IMG/VR virus record: IMGVR_UViG_3300020442_002628
Location: 1 to 20,261 of that record
Length of the DNA: 20,261 bases
Strand: one strand, 5' to 3'
DNA from: a virus
Under the pieces are notes generated by a model. That model saw nothing but the letters and a program-made list of their open reading frames with translations. It was not told the origin of the DNA and searched no databases. Shown here in pieces: positions 3,272 to 18,535 of the stretch (its first letter is position 1; each line of letters starts with the position of its first letter). A program made the translations under genes and the position numbers.

Positions 3272-3303
3272 GAGGGCCGTGTTAATTCGCGGCTCTCTTT
3301 TTT
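3272..3303 (+). terminator. Intrinsic terminator overlapping the end of the opposite gene
   Basis: GAGGGCCG (3272-3279) pairs with CGGCTCTC (3290-3297) with one G-U, a 10-base loop and six T residues after it. The stop codon of the leftward lipoprotein gene lies in the loop, so the 3' stem arm also codes for that protein's last residues. Confidence 0.85.
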
Positions 3304-3806
3304 ATTAGCAATGTTTTTACAATTGTGGTTGAAGTCGAGAAAAAGTTTTCTATTGTATCTTTACTTTTAGTTGGGTATGTAACCCAGTGATACGTATGAA
3401 AATCCTTTTTAATTAAAACAATAGCAACATCCCCCGCTTTTAACTTATCGAATTCTGTTTGTTCAACAGTAAAGCCTTTTGAAGTAAGAAAATTAACTAG
3501 CTCATGCGGCCAAGTAATTTCCATCGCCTCTTGATTAAAGACGCTCATTATTACTCTCATGAGGTTTCCGCTTTTTTGAATTTCCCTACTTATCTCTATG
3601 TCTGAATATGTAACATTTAGATGCGAAAATTCTTTGAGTGCATTCTCGATAGCGTTTGGCCCACAAGATATGTAGTGCCTTTTAAACGCCCCAGAATCGT
3701 CTGTAACGAACGTTCCGCTCTTCAGAGCCCCACAACCGCAGAACAGTATAAGCAAGAGCAATACGAACGGAAGCACGTACTTTTTGAGTGTAGGTTTTAT
3801 ACTCAT
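3282..3806 (-). CDS. Putative lipoprotein resembling C39/papain-fold cysteine peptidases
   Basis: The first 25 residues are a basic-hydrophobic signal (KPTLKKYVLPFVLLLLILF) ending in FCGC, so lipid attachment at Cys25 (or Cys23) is likely although the lipobox is not canonical. The mature part has SCGPNAIENALKEF (Cys48), the Cys-Gly-Pro signature of C39-like papain-fold peptidases. A later FHTYHWVTYP with His140 and a following Asp150 fit the usual Cys...His...Asp order. Domain length is about 125 residues, normal for C39. C39 enzymes cleave bacteriocin leaders; stand-alone exported ones are poorly known. It has its own promoter motif and opposes its neighbours, so it is an independently expressed accessory gene. 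Surface exclusion or cell-envelope processing are possible roles. Confidence 0.6.
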   Translation of the reverse strand: MSIKPTLKKYVLPFVLLLLILFCGCGALKSGTFVTDDSGAFKRHYISCGPNAIENALKEFSHLNVTYSDIEISREIQKSGNLMRVIMSVFNQEAMEITWPHELVNFLTSKGFTVEQTEFDKLKAGDVAIVLIKKDFHTYHWVTYPTKSKDTIENFFSTSTTIVKTLLIKKRAAN

Positions 3807-3814
3807 ACATTATT

Positions 3815-3822
3815 TTACACAA
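3815..3822 (-). promoter_or_regulatory. TTGTGTAA box, leftward (lipoprotein gene)
   Basis: The minus strand reads TTGTGTAA eight bases upstream of the lipoprotein ATG, preceded by TAGTTT. No Shine-Dalgarno site lies between box and ATG. It forms an inverted pair with the box at 3835-3842. Confidence 0.55.
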
Positions 3823-3834
3823 AAACTAAAGGAA

Positions 3835-3842
3835 TTGTGTAA
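3835..3842 (+). promoter_or_regulatory. TTGTGTAA box, rightward (PhoH gene)
   Basis: The octamer lies 14 bases upstream of the PhoH start. The following bases (TTCTCAATAAGCCT) resemble those after the portal-gene box. Together with the leftward copy it makes a perfect inverted repeat with a 12-base spacer, consistent with divergent promoters. Confidence 0.6.
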
Positions 3843-5050: not shown

Positions 5051-5097
5051 GGTGTATACCTAATTACATTAAAAATAGAAAAGTTTGTTAAAAAAAA

Positions 5098-5103
5098 TAT
5101 AAT
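5098..5103 (+). promoter_or_regulatory. Consensus -10 box five bases before an ATG
   Basis: A perfect TATAAT hexamer lies within an A/T tract, five bases before the ATG of the zinc-ribbon gene. No clear -35 hexamer is seen 17 bases upstream (ATAGAA). In this AT-rich context a chance match is possible. If used, transcription would begin at about the start codon and drive the whole sigma-terminase operon. Confidence 0.45.
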
Positions 5104-5108
5104 TTATT

Positions 5109-5504
5109 ATGAACATTTATTGTAAGTCTTGCGGGTCGCCTAACGCTTATGGCTCAAAAAAGCCTAAATTTTGCAGTAGTTGTGGCTCTCCTCTTGATTC
5201 TACGGCTAAAGCTAAAGTTCAGCCCGTAAAGCGTTCTGCACCGAAAAATCAGGTCATTGCTCAAGAATCTTACGAAGATGAAGAAATTCATGAAGATTCC
5301 ACTCAAATTCCAAATATTTCCCGTTTAGAAGCTGATATAGACTCAGGTAGAATGCAGGGAGTGAAAATTGGTGAAATCGCTGGTACGGCCACTGAAAATG
5401 ACGACGCATACATTAGACCTCAAGATGATAAAGTGAGCCCAGAAGAAGCCCTGAAGCAATTACAGCGCGAAGGCGGAAGCATCAGGCAAAAGGGAAGCTC
5501 TTAA
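5109..5504 (+). CDS. Zinc-ribbon protein with acidic linker
   Basis: The first 27 residues (YCKSCGSP ... FCSSCGSPLD) form two CxxC knuckles, a classic zinc ribbon. A basic linker (KAKVQPVKRSAPK) and a long, acidic, probably disordered middle (SYEDEEIHEDSTQ) follow. A conserved-looking segment (ISRLEADIDSGRMQGVKIG) and a predicted helix (SPEEALKQLQREGGS) end the 131-residue protein. Zinc ribbons of this type are found in transcription and translation factors. Its stop overlaps the sigma-factor start (TAATG), so the two are translationally coupled and a shared task in transcription is plausible. A T4 gp33-like co-activator role is speculation, since no sequence similarity to gp33 is visible. 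Confidence 0.7.
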   Translation: MNIYCKSCGSPNAYGSKKPKFCSSCGSPLDSTAKAKVQPVKRSAPKNQVIAQESYEDEEIHEDSTQIPNISRLEADIDSGRMQGVKIGEIAGTATENDDAYIRPQDDKVSPEEALKQLQREGGSIRQKGSS

Positions 5505-6193
5505 TGCCAAGAAAGCCTAAAAGGCCAAAGTTTGAAGAATGCATCGAGATAATCGACCAAGAGATTAAAAAGCGAAGGAACAAATGGAACCTAACCGCTT
5601 TAGCTTGGATGGATTTTGATGATGTCTCTCAGATTCTGAGGTTTCACATATTTAAGAAATGGGACATGTATGATCCGTCTCAGCCTCTCACACCCTGGGT
5701 AAACAGAATCATCTCCAACCAGATCAAAAACCTTATAAGGAATAACTATGGTAATTTTACTAGGCCATGCCTAAAGTGTGCTGCCGCAGAGGGTTTTGGT
5801 GGGTGCAGTATTTACGGAGACCAAGACAACAAATGCCCTTTGTTCGCTAAATGGGAAAAGACTAAAAAAAGAGCCCATGACGCCAAACTACCTTTGGCTT
5901 TGGAAAATCACACAAAAGAGGTATCTTCTATGGGTGGAGACTTTTTTGACGTTGAAGTAGCCGCAGACAAATTGCATAAGAAAATGAAAACGATTCTTAA
6001 AGCTAACGAGTTACAGGTTTACGAGTTACTTTATATTGAAAATTTAGAAGAAGAAGAGGTGGCCAAAAAAATGGGCTACAAAACTACAGAAAAAAATCGA
6101 CAGCCGGGTTACAAACAAATCAAGAACATCAAAAAGTCTATTCTCATAAAAGTCAAAAAAGAGATAGAGAGAAGTGGTGCGGATATTTTTTAG
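5504..6193 (+). CDS. Phage RNA polymerase sigma factor (diverged sigma70, gp55-like role)
   Basis: Residues about 31-85 (AWMDFDDVSQILRFHIFKKW, then YDPSQPLTPWVNRIISNQIK) match sigma region 2: an acidic helix, the QxxRxxIxxKxxxYD pattern and the W...RII..Q..N-IR helix that binds core polymerase and the -10 element. Region 4 is visible at about 163-220 (LKANELQVYELLYIENLEEE, AKKMGY, then a basic helix), a helix-turn-helix. Between them Cys89, Cys92, Cys101 and Cys111 form a probable zinc site. It most likely directs host RNA polymerase to late phage promoters. The start overlaps the preceding stop, with AAGGGA upstream. The identification is strong; promoter specificity is inferred. Confidence 0.85.
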   Translation: MPRKPKRPKFEECIEIIDQEIKKRRNKWNLTALAWMDFDDVSQILRFHIFKKWDMYDPSQPLTPWVNRIISNQIKNLIRNNYGNFTRPCLKCAAAEGFGGCSIYGDQDNKCPLFAKWEKTKKRAHDAKLPLALENHTKEVSSMGGDFFDVEVAADKLHKKMKTILKANELQVYELLYIENLEEEEVAKKMGYKTTEKNRQPGYKQIKNIKKSILIKVKKEIERSGADIF

Positions 6194-6194
6194 C

Positions 6195-7292
6195 ATGTCG
6201 GAACTAACAAAAGACCAAAGGCATCAGGCGGCTTTAGACCTGTGGAGAGAAAGAGAGTCAACGGGTGAACCTGCCCCTTCATTACCTGACTTGATTAAGG
6301 CGGCTTACCCAGACAAGCCAGAGCTTGATGGCAGAAGTAAGGAAGCTAGAGAGCTTAAAGCGTACCTAGCAGAGCTACAGATTCACGCAGACGGGTCTCA
6401 CGTTTATCACCCCAAAGAAATCGAGCCGCTAACCGAAGAACATAAAGAGTTTATCACTAATAATGTTGGCACTATGAATCCTACTTACCTAGGAAGAGTA
6501 ATGCACAAAGATGAAAGTATAACACCGCTCGATGGAAGAGTACGACAAATTGTAGACTTTATCGAAACCTTACCTCAAAACATAGTTAGTCAAAACACGG
6601 AGATCGTACCAGACCCAGCTTATACCCCGCCTAAAACATTTGATAAGACACTACAGCTAGTCAACAAGTACATACATGAAAAAATAGAAAAGAAAAAAAT
6701 CACTGGCCGACAAAAGAAAGAGATCAACGCCCTAATGGGTTATATCAACACAGTGAGATTTGTTCACCAAGTAAGTACGTTTGACAATAACATGGATAGA
6801 GAGCTATTCCAGTCCAGCTTTGTTCGTTACACGAATGATAAGCCAGACTTAACACAGGAAGAAGTAGATCAGTATATAGTATTATCTACCGAGGTAGTTA
6901 TTGGTTCTAGCATTCAGGCTCGCTCTGAACGACTGCAACAACTGCTTGACAACGCAGCAGAAGACAGTGAAGGTAGGCGGTTAGCGATGGGTTTAGTTCA
7001 GGCTATTAGCGCAGCACAGACGGAGTACAACCAGTGCGTCGGACGGCAGCATAAACTACTGGGTGATCTAAAAGAAAAGAGAAGCGACAAACTAAAAAGC
7101 CAAATAAAAGAAAGTGCAAGCGTTGTTCACCTTGTGCAAATGTGGAAAGAGGAAGAATCAAGAAAGAAACTTATCGCTTTAGCAGAGCTACGTAAAAAAG
7201 GAGTCAAAAAAGAGATACAAAAGCTATCTTCTATGGATGAAGTAAAAGCTCGGATAATGGGCATAAGCGAAGATGAGGTGTTAAATGGTTAA
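6195..7292 (+). CDS. Candidate terminase small subunit or packaging-associated protein
   Basis: No catalytic motif is recognised in this largely helical, charged protein of 365 residues. An N-terminal part (LTKDQRHQAALDLWRERES, then PSLPDLIKAAY) and PLDGRVRQIVDFIETLP could be helix-turn-helix DNA-binding regions. The C-terminal half is strongly helical (ERLQQLLDNAAEDSEGRR, QMWKEEESRKKLIALAELRK). Its place two genes before the large terminase fits a small terminase, but usual small subunits are shorter (about 150-200 residues), so this is positional inference. The ATG at 6195 lies one base after the sigma stop; an in-frame GTG at 6174 following GAGATAGAGAGAA is the alternative. It overlaps the next gene by eight bases. 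Confidence 0.5.
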   Translation: MSELTKDQRHQAALDLWRERESTGEPAPSLPDLIKAAYPDKPELDGRSKEARELKAYLAELQIHADGSHVYHPKEIEPLTEEHKEFITNNVGTMNPTYLGRVMHKDESITPLDGRVRQIVDFIETLPQNIVSQNTEIVPDPAYTPPKTFDKTLQLVNKYIHEKIEKKKITGRQKKEINALMGYINTVRFVHQVSTFDNNMDRELFQSSFVRYTNDKPDLTQEEVDQYIVLSTEVVIGSSIQARSERLQQLLDNAAEDSEGRRLAMGLVQAISAAQTEYNQCVGRQHKLLGDLKEKRSDKLKSQIKESASVVHLVQMWKEEESRKKLIALAELRKKGVKKEIQKLSSMDEVKARIMGISEDEVLNG

Positions 7293-8220
7293 GTGTAAAG
7301 TTTGCGGAAAAGAGTTTGATTCAGACAGGCAATTGCACGCCCACTTAAAGGCGCACAAAATGCGTGTCATTGAATATTATCAGTCACAGTACCCAAGGTA
7401 CGATAAATTTGATAATACAATTATAAAGTTCAAAAGCAAAGACCAGTATTTCGCTAGCGACTTCAATTCTAGAACTAATTTAAAAAACTGGATAAAGTCT
7501 GCTCCTAAAGAAGAGGCTAGAGAATACTGCAAGAACCTTCTTGTAGAGAGAAAAAAGAAAAAAAACCTAGAATATGCCCCGACTCAAGTAGAACTTAGAA
7601 CTTTACTAATCCCGCCCATTCAATGTTACAACGAACTGTTTGGAGATTATTATGATCTATGCACCGAGCTAGGTTTTAAAACTGACTATTTTAATTATGA
7701 CAAAATTATCACTGGCTCAGAAATCAATAACTCTAAAAAGATTTACATAGACACTAGAGAAAAAAAGCCTTTAAATTTCAAAAATGTGGAAACCGAAGTT
7801 AGAACTTTGAAGTTTGGCGACTACGCTTTTAGCGACGAAGAGGCTTCTTGCAAGTGTTATATAGAGAGGAAATCAACTAGCGATTTTATAGGGACTTTAA
7901 GCGGGGGCTACGATAGGTTTTGCAGGGAAATAGAAAGAGCACAGCAAGCTAATGCTGGATTTGTTATCCTAGTAGAAGAAACCCTTAGTAACTGTTTGGG
8001 CTTTAACTACTTGCCTCATGTTTACAAAAAAGGAACCAAAGTAACTCCAGAGTATTTGTTTCATAACGTAAGAAGACTAGGTCAAACTTACCCCTTCATC
8101 CAATTTCTGTTTGTAAAAGGCAGAGTCAAAGCGGCAGAAACTGTTCAGAAAATATTTACATCTGGATGCGCGTTTAAAAGCGTGGATTTACAATTGGCCT
8201 ACGATACTAAGAAATTGTAA
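7285..8220 (+). CDS. C2H2 zinc finger-ERCC4 domain nuclease
   Basis: Residues 4-24 form a classical C2H2 finger (Cys4, Cys7, His20, His24). The domain at about 150-260 is an ERCC4/XPF-type nuclease: IYIDTRE (Asp156), FGDY (Gly178-Asp179) and IERKSTSD (Glu194-Arg-Lys196, Asp200) reproduce the GD...ERK...D active site, followed by GYDRFCREIERA and VILVEE. The middle (about 50-145) is basic and unassigned. ERCC4 nucleases cut branched or flapped DNA. Placed eight bases inside the preceding gene and overlapping the large-terminase start by one base (TAATG), it may trim replication intermediates before packaging, the job endonuclease VII (gp49) does in T4. Function is inferred from the fold and position. 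Confidence 0.85.
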   Translation: MVKCKVCGKEFDSDRQLHAHLKAHKMRVIEYYQSQYPRYDKFDNTIIKFKSKDQYFASDFNSRTNLKNWIKSAPKEEAREYCKNLLVERKKKKNLEYAPTQVELRTLLIPPIQCYNELFGDYYDLCTELGFKTDYFNYDKIITGSEINNSKKIYIDTREKKPLNFKNVETEVRTLKFGDYAFSDEEASCKCYIERKSTSDFIGTLSGGYDRFCREIERAQQANAGFVILVEETLSNCLGFNYLPHVYKKGTKVTPEYLFHNVRRLGQTYPFIQFLFVKGRVKAAETVQKIFTSGCAFKSVDLQLAYDTKKL

Positions 8221-10043: not shown

Positions 10044-10051
10044 TTGTGTAA
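10044..10051 (+). promoter_or_regulatory. TTGTGTAA box before the portal gene
   Basis: The octamer begins at the first base after the terminase stop codon and ends 12 bases before the portal ATG. The intervening ACTCAAAACAGCA-like bases contain no Shine-Dalgarno site and resemble those downstream of the PhoH box. Confidence 0.6.
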
Positions 10052-11985: not shown

Positions 11986-13734
11986 ATGCCAAACAGGATA
12001 ATATACAACGCCCAAGATTTATTCTTCGGGTTGCCAAGCGGAGTAGATAACTTTCCGCTAGTTACTGGTTTTCTTTCTGACGGAAACACAGGCACGTTCG
12101 AAGTCCTCAAAAGAATTCATAGAGTCCAAAGCTTTAACTACGATATCACCACCAATAGAGAAGATATTGGTTTAGTCGGGAAATCCTCTTTTGACTCGCA
12201 TACTCTTTCTAGCCCACCAGATGTAAACGGTAGTATCTCATATTTTATCGAAGGGCTAAGTAATGAGAAAAAAATGGGGTTCAATGTTCTCACTAGCGGA
12301 GCGACAAACTTACCCAATAAAGAGTTTACCTACAACTTCGTAGACGGAAATAAAAAGCAAAATATATATTTAGCTGTCAACAAGTCTGGAGAAAACGCCC
12401 GAAGAACCCCAGCGTATGATCCCAGTGAAATCCCAGATTTAATTTCTTCTGGTAGAGCGTTAGAGATGACTACCCAGCAAGTAGATAATTTGGGTATGTT
12501 AGTTTTTCAAAACGCTTACATAAACGACTACGCCTTAGATATAACAGTTGGTAATTATCCAAAAGTTGACGTTGGCTTTGTGGCTGACAATGTAATATTT
12601 CTGGGGTCTGGATCAGGAATCAAAACGCCACTCATAAACAGTCAAGACGCTGAAGTTGAATACGGGGATAAAGAGCTAATTATCCCAAAGAATTACGCAA
12701 GGCGAAACGCGAACTTTGATGTAAACCACACTTTCAGACCAGGAGATGTTGAGATTGCGATATCCAAGCGAGCAGCGGACGAAGATATTTTAGTTCAAAA
12801 CGACATGGAAAGCTCCACCGACTTTGTTGGCTTTCATGGGGCCACAGTGGCTTTAACTTCTTCAGAGCAATACCAAGGCTTACAGTCTTTACAGGTTAAT
12901 CAAGCCTCTTCAATTACTAATGGTAATTATGGTGGGGCAATGATACGTGTCCCAATACAACAAATGGTGGTTGGAGAATATTATACCTACGAATTTTTTG
13001 TTAAAGCCAACACTACCAAACCAGAGGGAGAGCTACTAAACGTAAGCCAAGATGGGATACCAGGCACATTTAGTTTAAATCAGTTTGTGGGTAATGCTTG
13101 GACTAAAATACAAATAAGAAAAAAACTAACTTCCGCCCCATCCAGTAGCAATAAAGTTTTCAATATTTTCTTTGGTAGCGCACCTAGCTTAATTTTTTAC
13201 GTTGATTCATTCAAGGTCTACAAAGACGCAGAAAACGAGCCTGTTCAATTTTACAGAGATATCTTCCAGTCGGTTAAGATGAGCATACCAATGAGTAGAG
13301 AAAACCTATCTTGCATTGGTCATAAATACCATGTAGACAGAAACTTAACTTTACCTCTTAAATCCACGGTTACAATTGATATGATTGAAAGTGGGTCAAA
13401 TTATCAAATCTCTGGCAACTTCTTAGATAATCTACGCAGAGATGAAAAGTACGACATGAGTTTGACCTTTAGAGACAGTCAAGGTAATCAGGGCATGAAG
13501 TTCAACATATTCGGCAGCAAATTTGAGGGCGCAGCTTACAACTCAGACATTGGGTCAAACAAAACTGTTTCCACAACATTTACGATGTCTAATGATTATG
13601 ACTTTGCTAGAAGTGTAATATCTGCTGAAGGTCAAGGCTTGTTTATCCTAGATCATTTAGTGGACGATAATTTAAACATATTAACCACAGACGGCGGTGA
13701 TCCGATGATCGACGAAACCCCATTCTTGTTCTAA
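11986..13734 (+). CDS. Tail tube-like protein with an inserted sugar-binding-type domain
   Basis: The flanking parts look like a phage tail tube protein: RIHRVQSFNYDITTNREDIG, VNGSISYFIEGLSNEKKMGF (about 81-99) and, after the insert, SVKMSIPMSRENL and KYDMSLTFRDSQGNQGMKF. Between residues about 270 and 415 lies a separate jelly-roll module (NDMESSTDFVGFHGATVAL ... LQSLQVNQAS ... YYTYEFFVKANTT ... FYVDSFKVYKD) with the pattern of carbohydrate-binding modules of the CBM4/9 type. Such modules on virion surfaces can bind sugars on the host or in mucus. The gene starts 11 bases after the portal stop and its own stop overlaps the fibre start (TAATG). The tail-tube call rests on sequence pattern alone. 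Confidence 0.55.
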   Translation: MPNRIIYNAQDLFFGLPSGVDNFPLVTGFLSDGNTGTFEVLKRIHRVQSFNYDITTNREDIGLVGKSSFDSHTLSSPPDVNGSISYFIEGLSNEKKMGFNVLTSGATNLPNKEFTYNFVDGNKKQNIYLAVNKSGENARRTPAYDPSEIPDLISSGRALEMTTQQVDNLGMLVFQNAYINDYALDITVGNYPKVDVGFVADNVIFLGSGSGIKTPLINSQDAEVEYGDKELIIPKNYARRNANFDVNHTFRPGDVEIAISKRAADEDILVQNDMESSTDFVGFHGATVALTSSEQYQGLQSLQVNQASSITNGNYGGAMIRVPIQQMVVGEYYTYEFFVKANTTKPEGELLNVSQDGIPGTFSLNQFVGNAWTKIQIRKKLTSAPSSSNKVFNIFFGSAPSLIFYVDSFKVYKDAENEPVQFYRDIFQSVKMSIPMSRENLSCIGHKYHVDRNLTLPLKSTVTIDMIESGSNYQISGNFLDNLRRDEKYDMSLTFRDSQGNQGMKFNIFGSKFEGAAYNSDIGSNKTVSTTFTMSNDYDFARSVISAEGQGLFILDHLVDDNLNILTTDGGDPMIDETPFLF

Positions 13735-16700
13735 TGCCTACTAAAATTAGAAATGTCGAATTGCTAACGCTCGCTAGAAGCGATGCGGGTACTCCTGTAT
13801 TGGGGCATGTTGGTGTTGGTATCGACGCTAACTTGATTCAAGATTTCGAGATGGGCCTTTCAAGGGTTAGCTCTGCGGCTCAATTTAATTTAGCTCTTAA
13901 TGTAGAGGGAGCAACGACCAATACTGCTCACTACGGTGGTATCGCTTTTACTCAAGGTGCTAGCGCTGACACTGTAATGGCTTCTATCAAAGCGGTTAAT
14001 ACTAGTGTTGATGGTTATGTTGATCTTTCTTTTAATACTAGGAGCGTTACTAACGCTTTGCTTATTGAAGCTGACGGAAGCGTCAGCACTAATGGCCGTC
14101 TTGATGTTAACCATGACACGGTAAAGCTGTATAATAGCGCAAACACTAACAATACTTATTTCTTTGCCGAAAATACTGGTGCTGGTAATGCTGGCATAAA
14201 ATTAAAAAACAGTCAAGGCGAATTTACCATTATTGCTAATGATAGACTGAGGTTTATAAGTGATGATAGCCCGACTACTGAAGTATTGTCTCTTCATCCA
14301 GATGGAAGTGTTGGCATAGGCACGGGGTCAAGTACGCCCGATGGAAACCTTGAGATTAAAAGCGATGGATCAGATGCCGCTGGAGCACATTTAATTTTAA
14401 CACACGCAAACAGCAACAGCACTGATATAGTTAGTACGATTGCCTTTGCTAATAATGCTGGCTCTGTAGCGCACATTCGAGGTGGAACCACAAGCGCAAA
14501 TGATAACGGATACATTTCGTTCCAAACTGATAATTCAGGAACAACCGCTGAACGACTACGAATTGATTATGATGGACAGACTTACTTTTACGGTCAACTA
14601 AATATACCTGGCGGCAGTGGGTCAACAACAAACCGATTAAATTTCAATTATAATTCAAGTAATGGTGTTGCTGAAATAGCTCCCGACAGTAGCAGCGGAC
14701 ACACTGAATTAAAGTTTTCTACCTGCCTCTCTGGAACTAAATCCGAAAGAATGCGCATACATCATGACGGAAAAGTTGGCGTAGGCACGGGATCAACCGC
14801 ACTAACCGAATTACTAGAAGTCAATGGCAACGTAAAAGCAACAAAATTCATTGGCCCACTAGAAGGTAACGCAGACACAGTAACTACAAACGCCAACCTA
14901 ACAGGAGATGTTACTTCTGTAGGAAACGCTACTTCTATTGCTGCTGGTGTGATTGTAGATGCGGATATTAAATCTGACGCGGCTATCGCGTACTCTAAGT
15001 TGGGTGCAATCCCTACTTGGAACCAAGACACAACAGGCAATGCCGATACAGCTACAGCTTTACAAACCCAAAGAAACATAGTTGTAGGAAAATCCGCCGC
15101 AGGGGCTGGCGACATTGATGCTATTACTCAATCATTCGATGGCAGTACAAACATTAGTTTTGACTCAACACTTAATTCTCATTTACCCGCCGATCTCAGG
15201 AATACCACTAGCACTAATATAGCCGACGAGCCAGGTAACACTGCTTTAAAAATTATTGGTAGCGCTTCAAAAGCTGTTCAGTTAAAAATAAATCGTCAAG
15301 GGTTGATTGTAGGTTTTGACGAAGCTACGATAACTGGTGGAGGAGGCGGTGGTTCATCTTTTGATGTAACACTTAACGATGAGATATATTTTGATGCTGC
15401 TTATACCGACCAAACAACAAAGACAATAGATTCTTCTAACCCCTCTTTTGGTCTTCACTTCAACAGTGAGGCTTTATTTACATCTTTGACAGAAACAGGC
15501 GGTACAATGTCGGTAACAATCGGCGGTACAACCAAAACATTAGATTTACCCGATGCTAGTTTTACTCAGCTTGATTTAGACGGAAGCACTTTGCGGGTTA
15601 CGGTTGGCGGCACACCAAAAACTGTTGGTTTAAGTAGCATAAGCGTAGCCAACGCCACGAACGCTACTAATGCAGACAACATTGCGATAAGCTCAGAGAA
15701 CACTAACGCCACAAGATATTTAAGTTTTGTGGACGGCACGAGTGACGACAGAGCTTTAAAGGTGGATGCAGGATTAACTTACAACCCAAGCTCCAACACT
15801 TTAACCACTACAACTTTCTCTGGAGCTTTGAGCGGTAATGCTACTACGTCTAGTGGACTGCTGGTTGGTTCTACTACATATACTCCATCAAGCTCGGCAA
15901 CTGGAGGCGTGTCTTTGGTATCAAGAAACTCAAGCAATGAAGTCTCTATAGCCAAACTAATTTTGTCCGACAACACCACATCATCTAATTTAGATGTGAT
16001 AGTTGGTAAGATAAGTGGCAGTGATCTTTTGCGTGAGTTTTCAGTTGATCAAGTAAGAAATTTTATTGACCCAGACAATACTCGTTTTTTGCCCAGCCCA
16101 ACAAATGGGGTTTATCCATTAACTGTATCAAACGCCGCTTCTGCTGATGGCGCAACTACCGCTGGCTCTGCGGGCTCTATAAGCGCGGGCGTAGGTGATC
16201 AGGCGTTCTCTGCGGTGACTGCCGATGGCTTTGTAAAATTATCAGGCGGCAATGGAACTTTGTCCGTTGGTGCTTTAGCTGAAGGTGACATTCCTGACAA
16301 TAACGCTAACACAACAGGCAAAGCTAATACCGCTGGAACTGCTGATGTAGCTGACACAGTAACATTTGGCAGTGCTAATATATCAGCTAGTCACGCTAAC
16401 ACCGCTTCTACTTTGGTGGTTAGAGGCGCTGATAACTCAATCAACGTAGGAGCTTTGGCTTCAACAAATATTACAGCCCAAAGCTTGGAATTAACCAATG
16501 CCTCCGCCGCCCTAAAGGTTCAAGAAATAATCCCTCGCGGAAGCGGTAGCATGTTAAACTTTGGCACGAGCGGTAGCGGCTGGCCAGGATTAGGAGAGCC
16601 CACTGACACTGGGGTAGGCCCAAATTATTATGTAAAAGCTAGCACTCAAATAGGTAATCCTAACTCAAATACTGAGGGAGCTTTTAGGAATGGCTACTTT

Positions 16701-17072
16701 GGCGAAGTATACTCCTTTGATGGTATCACTTCAGCTTCTGATTCAAGGATAAAAGAAAACATAGAACCCCTTTCTTTGGGGCTTGACTTTGTGAGGCTTC
16801 TTGAGCCTAAAAAATATACTTGGAAAAAATCTGATACGCCTAGAATTAAATTTGGAGCATTGGCTCAAGAAATAGAGCAAGTAATAAACCAACTCACCGA
16901 AGAAGAAACGTCTTTAATCAATATATCAAATTATCACGAGAACACCGAAGAGCAAAATGAACAAGCCTTAAAGGGTGTTTCACAATCTCAAGTTATGTGG
17001 GTTTTGTTTAACGCTGTAAAACAATTAGACGCAAAAGTGCAAGAGCTCGAAAAACAATTGGACAAATCCTAA
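13734..17072 (+). CDS. Tail fibre or spike with C-terminal S74 self-cleaving chaperone domain
   Basis: The 1112-residue protein is Ser/Thr/Asn/Gly-rich and repetitive. Several units contain a DG-[SKQ]-V-G-[IV]-GTG turn (DGSVGIGTGSS, DGKVGVGTGS) and ERLRIDYDG/ERMRIHHDG, as in trimeric beta-structured fibres. A GGGGG hinge lies near residue 540. The end (about 1000-1112) is a peptidase S74 intramolecular chaperone domain: Ser1002 and Lys1007 in SDSRIK are the expected catalytic pair, followed by GALAQEIEQVI and a final coiled coil (LDAKVQELEKQLDK). The domain drives trimer folding and is then cut off just before Ser1002. The protein probably binds the host receptor. The start overlaps the preceding stop. 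Confidence 0.88.
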   Translation: MPTKIRNVELLTLARSDAGTPVLGHVGVGIDANLIQDFEMGLSRVSSAAQFNLALNVEGATTNTAHYGGIAFTQGASADTVMASIKAVNTSVDGYVDLSFNTRSVTNALLIEADGSVSTNGRLDVNHDTVKLYNSANTNNTYFFAENTGAGNAGIKLKNSQGEFTIIANDRLRFISDDSPTTEVLSLHPDGSVGIGTGSSTPDGNLEIKSDGSDAAGAHLILTHANSNSTDIVSTIAFANNAGSVAHIRGGTTSANDNGYISFQTDNSGTTAERLRIDYDGQTYFYGQLNIPGGSGSTTNRLNFNYNSSNGVAEIAPDSSSGHTELKFSTCLSGTKSERMRIHHDGKVGVGTGSTALTELLEVNGNVKATKFIGPLEGNADTVTTNANLTGDVTSVGNATSIAAGVIVDADIKSDAAIAYSKLGAIPTWNQDTTGNADTATALQTQRNIVVGKSAAGAGDIDAITQSFDGSTNISFDSTLNSHLPADLRNTTSTNIADEPGNTALKIIGSASKAVQLKINRQGLIVGFDEATITGGGGGGSSFDVTLNDEIYFDAAYTDQTTKTIDSSNPSFGLHFNSEALFTSLTETGGTMSVTIGGTTKTLDLPDASFTQLDLDGSTLRVTVGGTPKTVGLSSISVANATNATNADNIAISSENTNATRYLSFVDGTSDDRALKVDAGLTYNPSSNTLTTTTFSGALSGNATTSSGLLVGSTTYTPSSSATGGVSLVSRNSSNEVSIAKLILSDNTTSSNLDVIVGKISGSDLLREFSVDQVRNFIDPDNTRFLPSPTNGVYPLTVSNAASADGATTAGSAGSISAGVGDQAFSAVTADGFVKLSGGNGTLSVGALAEGDIPDNNANTTGKANTAGTADVADTVTFGSANISASHANTASTLVVRGADNSINVGALASTNITAQSLELTNASAALKVQEIIPRGSGSMLNFGTSGSGWPGLGEPTDTGVGPNYYVKASTQIGNPNSNTEGAFRNGYFGEVYSFDGITSASDSRIKENIEPLSLGLDFVRLLEPKKYTWKKSDTPRIKFGALAQEIEQVINQLTEEETSLINISNYHENTEEQNEQALKGVSQSQVMWVLFNAVKQLDAKVQELEKQLDKS

Positions 17073-17266: not shown

Positions 17267-17288
17267 TCATAAATACTCATAATTAAGA

Positions 17289-17315
17289 AAGGGCGCTTTT
17301 TGGCGCTCTTTTTTT
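17289..17315 (+). terminator. Intrinsic terminator closing the portal-fibre unit
   Basis: AAGGGCGC (17289-17296) pairs with GCGCTCTT (17303-17310) with one G-U and a six-base loop. T residues follow (17311-17315). The last two Ts are also the first two bases of a TTGTGTAA box, so termination and the next promoter are joined. Confidence 0.88.
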
Positions 17316-17321
17316 GTGTAA
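17314..17321 (+). promoter_or_regulatory. TTGTGTAA box overlapping a terminator
   Basis: The octamer starts within the terminator's U-tract and ends eight bases before the ATG at 17330. No Shine-Dalgarno site lies between. The overlap supports a role in starting a new transcript directly after the old one ends. Confidence 0.6.
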
Positions 17322-17329
17322 CAATATAT

Positions 17330-17662
17330 ATGAAAAACCTAATTTCATGGGCTAAACAAAATATTCTTTCGCTAGCTCAAACCATAATGCTGTTCTTCAC
17401 CGCGATTGTGCTCGCCGTACTCTTGAATAACCAAATCAAAACATCTGAGGTTCATCAGCTAAACGAAGAGCTAACTCAAGAGGTGAGAACCCTAGATAGA
17501 GACACCAACGAAATCATGATTAAGATGATTGAACAACGTGGTCAGATTATGCAAATGGGCGCAACTATCGAAGAAGCCAATGAAATTATTCAAAGCTTGG
17601 TTGGCAGATTGCAGCAAATGCAGCAAGAGCTTAACAAGGCAAAGGGGCGCAGTGAATCATAA
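17330..17662 (+). CDS. Membrane-anchored coiled-coil protein, possible i-spanin
   Basis: An N-terminal membrane helix (LAQTIMLFFTAIVLAVLL, about 15-32) is followed by a long coiled coil (about 35-105: VHQLNEELTQEVRTLDRDTN, then EIIQSLVGRLQQMQQELNKA) and a short basic end. The 110-residue length and type II topology (short cytoplasmic start, periplasmic coil) fit inner-membrane spanins, which work with an outer-membrane lipoprotein to fuse membranes at lysis. No o-spanin or endolysin is visible beside it, so a different membrane scaffold role is equally possible. An upstream TTG at 17300 would lie within the terminator and is rejected. The gene has its own TTGTGTAA box. Confidence 0.65.
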   Translation: MKNLISWAKQNILSLAQTIMLFFTAIVLAVLLNNQIKTSEVHQLNEELTQEVRTLDRDTNEIMIKMIEQRGQIMQMGATIEEANEIIQSLVGRLQQMQQELNKAKGRSES

Positions 17663-18239: not shown

Positions 18240-18247
18240 TTGTGTAA
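18240..18247 (+). promoter_or_regulatory. TTGTGTAA box before the capsid genes
   Basis: The octamer lies 21 bases before the ATG at 18269, the longest spacing of the set. It is the only box followed by a clear Shine-Dalgarno site (GAGGAG). Its upstream context (TAGTTT) matches that of the leftward copy near 3822. Confidence 0.6.
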
Positions 18248-18268: not shown

Positions 18269-18535
18269 ATGAATAATGATCATTTAAACGTAAATAATAT
18301 CGCTTGTGGAGGAACAGCGAAGGTTTCCGCTGATAGCGGTAACTTTTTTCGTGTTACCGCCATTCATAATGGCCACACTTCTGCTTCCACCGTAACTTTT
18401 GCCGATGATTCGGCTTTAAACACAATCACTGTAGGCGCGGGTGCTAGCGTCGATTTGGGCGTTGCGCCAATCGTATGCAAAAGCTTTACCCCAGGCCACG
18501 CTGCAATTTCAGTTTTTTATCATAAGAGAGGCTAA
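18269..18535 (+). CDS. Small beta-rich protein (88 aa), possible head decoration
   Basis: The product begins MNNDHLNVNNIACGGTAKVS and is rich in small and beta-forming residues (FFRVTAIHNGHTSASTVTFA, TITVGAGASVDLG, ISVFYHKRG). It has a compact Ig- or jelly-roll-like pattern with no membrane segment. Expression looks strong, with a clear GAGGAG ribosome-binding site and a promoter box directly upstream. It sits two bases before the protease-scaffold gene and shortly before the probable decoration protein, so a capsid accessory role is likely by context. I recognise no specific family. Confidence 0.65.
   Translation: MNNDHLNVNNIACGGTAKVSADSGNFFRVTAIHNGHTSASTVTFADDSALNTITVGAGASVDLGVAPIVCKSFTPGHAAISVFYHKRG

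Follow-up and report, generated by a model that had tools for sequence, protein, structure and literature searches.

Here we report a putative late transcription system of an uncultured phage family, found in a stretch of 20,261 nucleotides from IMG/VR virus record IMGVR_UViG_3300020442_002628 (the window, that is, the whole stretch of DNA that was analysed). The window encodes a protein of 229 amino acids that, judged by profile matches and a fold model, is a phage-encoded sigma factor with the sigma2-linker-sigma4 architecture of ECF sigmas. The best explanation of the findings as a whole, to which we give a probability of about 0.7, is that this protein is a phage late sigma factor working with the host core RNA polymerase on -10-type late promoters that carry the hexamer GTGTAA. 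The evidence comprises the domain architecture of the protein, the invariance of four cysteines in its linker, the enrichment and position of the GTGTAA box, its co-occurrence with the sigma gene, and the temporal layout of the genomes.

The phage family that encodes this sigma is uncultured and numbers hundreds of members in IMG/VR, where a scan found 471 stretches encoding relatives and a second query found an overlapping 361. If the reading is right, sequence alone has yielded both a sigma factor and the promoter sequence that it reads, for a phage family of which no cultured member was found. In that case a phage sigma would contain a complete metal site between sigma2 and sigma4, and the way in which a sigma that keeps its sigma4 domain works on promoters without a -35 element could be tested in a natural system.

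The sigma protein and its four-cysteine linker

The gene and the parts of its product lie at the following positions.

5504..6193, plus strand: ECF-like phage sigma factor gene, 229 aa (Pfam and fold matches; exact ORF)
5531..5746, plus strand: sigma region 2, residues about 10-81 (Pfam match at 36-81)
5768..5854, plus strand: four-cysteine module, residues 89-117, C-x2-C-x8-C-x9-C-P-L-Y/F, then W117 (invariance)
5951..6172, plus strand: sigma region 4-like helix-turn-helix domain, residues 150-223 (VIA-align, conservation)

An earlier sequence-only reading had claimed sigma regions 2 and 4 for this protein and named a profile search for sigma homology as a check. That search gave a Pfam match above the gathering score, to Sigma70_r2 at residues 36-81 (E 2.3e-5); the same family was matched in 44/44 members of a non-redundant alignment of relatives. 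Region 4 is marginal by sequence (Sigma70_r4_2 in 2 of the 44 relatives, best E 0.036) and was supported by fold: residues 152-223 of an AF2 model, built on the 44-row alignment, match M. tuberculosis SigD4 (3vfz) over 62 residues at 1.6 A with a Z of 9.8 (VIA-align). This domain also contains the best-conserved stretch of the relative alignment, GYKQIKNIKK. Among PDB structures, the model is matched best by sigma factors or RNA polymerase complexes, and most named top matches in a viral structure library are sigma factors as well. Helices are confidently predicted within residues 10-79 (38-51 and 62-79 in region 2) and 150-223, and residues 82-147 are poorly predicted; the mutual placement of sigma2 and sigma4 is unfixed in the model, with a whole-chain rmsd of 12-17 A to the fold matches. 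In the model and its fold matches the layout is of ECF type, with two domains, no regions 1.1 and 3, and the cysteine linker alone between them. A weak phrog_4046 match (E 0.006) that spans the cysteines and region 4 was dropped because only 2/44 members showed it.

The window protein has cysteines at positions 13, 89, 92, 101, and 111, and none C-terminal of 111. Cys13 is not conserved among relatives. The other four stand exactly where the sequence-only reading had put them, between regions 2 and 4, and they are invariant: the pattern C-x2-C-x8-C-x9-C-P recurs with fixed spacing in 87/87 distinct relatives (158 loci, whose 87 distinct proteins share 57-99% identity with the window sigma). 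The first linker cysteine follows directly on region 2.4 (NLIRNNYGNFxRPCLKC). Taken alone, the cysteine segment gave no significant match in Pfam or PDB sequences, and AF2 confidence in the module is low (pLDDT about 50-60; 53 in a segment model of residues 76-150). The insert had been described as standing in place of region 3; because ECF sigmas lack region 3 in any case, the module does not replace it, and the segment is better described as an ECF-type linker.

The invariance and spacing of these cysteines are most naturally read as a metal site, and zinc binding by the module is plausible. Situated directly after region 2.4, the module would most likely be folded round one zinc ion and would probably stiffen the linker. 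In sigma70, region 3.0 reads the TG of extended -10 promoters; the module lies in the place of region 3.0 and the box starts with GTG, and we hypothesize that the module may help to read or hold this upstream GTG. We consider unlikely the fullest form of the idea, in which the four cysteines make a metal-dependent, possibly metal- or redox-sensing DNA reader that replaces region 3.0, reads GTG, and allows work without a -35 element, so that late transcription across the family would be metal-dependent and would partly give leaderless mRNAs.

Another, somewhat unlikely possibility is that the cysteines hold an Fe-S cluster or copper, or act as a redox switch, and thereby gate late transcription, instead of forming a structural zinc site. 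Relatives often carry an added fifth cysteine at position 108 (53/87 distinct proteins), but this residue is variable, and a weak Pfam match to PF03692, the zinc- or iron-chelating CxxCxxCC family (5/44, best E 0.017), is insignificant. CorE, an ECF sigma whose activity is copper-dependent, has a CXC motif in the same linker, and the fourth linker ligand here is a cysteine followed by proline, an arrangement frequent at Fe-S sites. Four invariant cysteines with a CxxC pair are, however, just as typical of zinc.

The GTGTAA box and its probable link to the sigma

The octamer TTGTGTAA, previously taken as the box consensus, occurs in five copies in the window, a number reached by 2/100 shuffles, and all five lie 8-21 nt upstream of ORF starts.

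3815..3822, minus strand: putative late box TTGTGTAA, divergent partner of the next, upstream of ORF 3282-3806 (minus strand), spacing 8 nt, predicted leaderless
3835..3842, plus strand: putative late box TTGTGTAA upstream of phoH
10044..10051, plus strand: putative late box at the terL-portal junction
17314..17321, plus strand: putative late box with a spacing of 8 nt to the ORF whose ATG is at 17330, predicted leaderless; adjoins a terminator-like hairpin with a T-run
18240..18247, plus strand: putative late box upstream of ORF 18269-18535

When 8-mers upstream of ORFs were counted without a preset motif, TTGTGTAA came out for the window, and several other family contigs gave words of the GTGTAATA type. 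Across the family the octamer gives way to a shorter consensus: the conserved core is GTGTAA, usually followed by T-W-W, and the leading TT is not conserved. Fourteen contigs contain 119 cores at most 40 nt upstream of ORF starts, a density of 37 per 10 kb; inside genes the density per 10 kb is 0.85 in sense and 1.08 in antisense orientation, and unrelated hexamers of similar composition are not enriched to this degree in the same contigs. At the terL-portal junction the core precedes the portal gene in 44/44 distinct junctions, whose portal proteins are 53-98% identical; the upstream side is terL coding sequence, and the spacer is otherwise unconserved.

The enrichment of GTGTAA was 55x and 31x in two sets of sigma-family loci, which partly overlap the earlier box data, and 0.2x and 2.2x in control sets of 35 T4-like loci and 34 loci of other phages, respectively, neither of which contains a sigma relative by tblastn. 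As a positive control of the script, the known T4 late promoter TATAAAT was enriched 27x in the T4-likes, and 1.2x and 0x in the sigma family. Since the controls without the sigma stay low, the enrichment goes with the family and not with AT-rich intergenic DNA.

Two opposed boxes about 12 nt apart occupy 3815-3842, between ORF 3282-3806 (minus strand) and phoH, and this divergent arrangement recurs in relatives. At 17287-17321 a terminator and a putative late promoter stand back to back, the T-run of the hairpin leading straight into the box (…GGCGCTCTTTTTTTGTGTAA), as they do in relatives (L117 at about 1866; G009 at 21256).

The window boxes are very probably promoters served by the sigma. 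The sequence-only reading had already named the sigma as the candidate to read the box, and this proposal gains from the lineage-wide co-occurrence, the conserved position, and the clean controls, while the consensus attached to it needed the correction given above. From co-occurrence and position we infer that this sigma, rather than another phage factor, reads GTGTAA.

It appears quite unlikely that GTGTAA is a late promoter read by a different factor, either a zinc-ribbon protein encoded beside the sigma or an activator with host sigma70, and that the sigma serves other promoters. The phage family is cohesive, with sigma, box, and all else occurring together and no outgroup found that has one without the other, so co-occurrence alone does not separate the sigma from other factors; moreover, the box has an extended -10 look (TG-TAATAT) that activator-helped sigma70 could read, and the zinc-ribbon partner is adjacent and equally conserved.

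5109..5504, plus strand: small gene that overlaps the start of the sigma gene; its product has a zinc ribbon with 2 x CxxC at the N-terminus, an acidic linker, and a conserved tail

The tail motif of its product is F-x-KEAG-x-x-R. An ORF ends beside the sigma start in 69/80 relatives, nearly all of them of the zinc-ribbon family, and tblastn matches of the protein number 91 loci, some overlapping. It is a candidate coactivator, anti-sigma, or other partner of the sigma. Against a different reader, the sigma (A1) profile matched once per contig in 14 large contigs and picked out no second sigma-like protein. A separate sigma regulon is likewise not visible, because the 8-mer counts gave no other lineage-wide upstream motif save host-type TTGACA/TATATT promoters. 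In phage phiEco32, an ECF-type phage sigma goes with the same layout of host-type early and phage-type late promoters (PMC4331800).

Anatomy of the putative promoters and temporal layout

With the G of the core as base 0, bases 6-8 are mostly A/T, and among promoters with a spacing of at least 10 nt, 60% have T at base 13 and 80% have a purine at base 14. The distance from core to ATG has a single sharp mode at 8 nt (19/112 promoters, compared with 0 at 7 nt and 3 at 9 nt), although ORF starts were set mechanically as the first ATG, which adds noise to the spacing. At a spacing of 8 nt, base 14 is the A of ATG itself. The T/purine signature and the spacing mode therefore agree, and we infer transcription +1 at base 14 from the G of GTGTAA. 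With +1 at this base, the A of ATG would itself be the start at about one promoter in six, including those at 17314 and 3815 (minus strand) in the window, and these late mRNAs are predicted to be leaderless and would be translated as such. The profile aligned on the box contains no -35 motif, only a weak AT-rich patch at -27..-22; a -35 element at variable spacing would be smeared by this alignment. That sigma4 is conserved although no -35 motif accompanies the box counts against the late-sigma explanation.

Highly improbable is the idea that GTGTAA acts in translation, as a ribosome-binding or start-context signal: the box does lie 4-34 nt before start codons, often closer than a normal leader allows, but it precedes a small share of genes, mostly at operon heads and after terminator-like hairpins, its distance to ATG varies widely apart from the one sharp mode, the T/purine signature keeps to +13/+14 regardless of where the ATG stands, and the T4 late promoter was placed alike in the same enrichment test.

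Under the late-sigma explanation, early genes would be transcribed from host sigma70 promoters, and the sigma would be made from such a promoter early or in mid-infection. Its sigma2 would then engage the beta-prime clamp helices of the host core enzyme, probably together with sigma4 on the beta flap, and the sigma would direct this RNA polymerase to the -10-type element GTG-TAA-T-W-W, 14 bases upstream of a purine start. These promoters would work without a fixed -35 element, and the structural genes would be switched on late.

Host-like sites of the form TTGAC-N16-19-TA...T near ORF starts number 43 upstream and 14 downstream of the sigma gene, compared with 20 and 86 for GTGTAA boxes (Fisher P 1.8e-12, which is overstated because contigs overlap, namely G001 with G013, and G007, G011, and G014 with one another). 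Boxes are also found at some early-region genes, and sigma70-like sites at some genes downstream. In a 77-kb contig of the family, the box-preceded genes include those for PhoH, portal, tail fibres, and ferredoxin. A box also stands in front of the sigma operon of some relatives (G006, G010, and the 77-kb contig), which might allow self-reinforcement. In the window, the operon has a sigma70-like site in front of it.

5076..5103, plus strand: weak candidate for a host sigma70-like promoter of the zinc-ribbon/sigma operon, TAGAAA-N16-TATAAT

Promoter-like sites in the window are no commoner than in shuffles, and the candidate is therefore weak. An RNA polymerase RpoB domain was absent in six contigs, including those of 162 and 172 kb, in a search that matched all control genomes; a search for T7-type RNA polymerase was uninformative, as its controls gave no match either. 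The early block of one 68-kb relative (G002; L093-L096) contains ten near-identical promoters, TTGACA-spacer-TGCTATATT or TTGACA-spacer-TGTGCTATATT, before small ORFs.

Known sigma systems, phage family, and host

The plan is like that of phiEco32 (Kuravirus; a relative occurs in phage 7-11), whose gp36 is also a single small phage-encoded ECF-type sigma. Late structural genes of phiEco32 are transcribed from gp36 promoters with the 9-bp consensus tAATGTAtA, and its early genes from host sigma70 promoters of the TTGACA/TATAAT type (PMC4331800). The two systems differ in the box (TAATGTATA in phiEco32, GTGTAATAT here) and in the cysteines, of which gp36 has none, and the leaderless spacing predicted here is not described for phiEco32 in the available part of that source. 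Comparisons of gp36 with the sigma family by hmmsearch and hhalign stayed at background.

T4 gp55 had been offered as the model for the window protein. It consists of sigma2 only, with gp33 as a split sigma4 mimic and gp45 as a clamp activator (PMC2988020, PMC7892883), whereas sigma2 and sigma4 are joined in one chain here. Because gp55 lacks the sigma4 fold present in the window protein, it is not the nearest model, and the ECF architecture is closer. Comparisons of gp55 with the window sigma by blastp, hmmsearch, and hhalign gave nothing beyond background. A C-terminal IDI-hydrophobic motif is common in the family but absent in some members, and it does not resemble the clamp-binding SLDFLYE of gp55; a search for gp45-family clamps in six contigs gave no match, but none in the controls either. 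Like the boxes here, T4 late promoters are -10-type elements just upstream of genes and have no -35 element (PMC2988020), and the two were placed alike in the enrichment test. The T4 promoter TATAAATA is nonetheless a different sequence, as the TATAAAT values in the sigma family indicate.

The linker architecture, which the sequence-only reading had called unusual, has its nearest precedent in CorE (ECF238, Myxococcus xanthus; CorE / CorE2), another ECF sigma with a cysteine motif between sigma2 and sigma4, where the CXC is needed for activity (PMC8999054). CorE combines its CXC with a C-terminal Cys-rich domain, whereas here there are four cysteines, all in the linker. CorE also differs in role: it regulates stress responses in a bacterium, whereas the window protein is probably a late sigma of a phage.

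The window sigma had no match in 50,697 phage records; the sigma of a distant member, searched against the same records, matched Vibrio phage sigma-like proteins at E about 5 only. The window TerL is just 20-30% identical to its matches in cultured phages. No paper on the GTGTAA box or on the sigma of this family was found in the open-access literature. The sole match in genome collections is NZWA01000041 (L116, L117-L120), the 77-kb phage-like contig, which is binned in a Flavobacteriales MAG. A Bacteroidota host was considered and doubted: TAnnTTTG is not enriched in the sigma family (0.6x), whereas promoters of the form TTGAC-N-TA...T are (12.9x). Because the family lacks Bacteroidota promoter signatures, the Flavobacteriales bin may be wrong.

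Three other window genes deserve mention. ORF 3282-3806 (minus strand), which would be box-driven and is predicted leaderless, encodes a lipoprotein-like product with a CGP motif and a later His that recalls C39-like cysteine peptidases and has no Pfam match. The gene at 7285-8220 (plus strand), which in the family always stands between sigma and terL, encodes an ERCC4-type nuclease whose N-terminus carries a C2H2 zinc finger. The product of 13734-17072 (plus strand) is tail-fibre-like, with 1112 aa, and its C-terminus (SDSRIKENIEPL...) resembles, by eye, a self-cleaving S74 chaperone domain.
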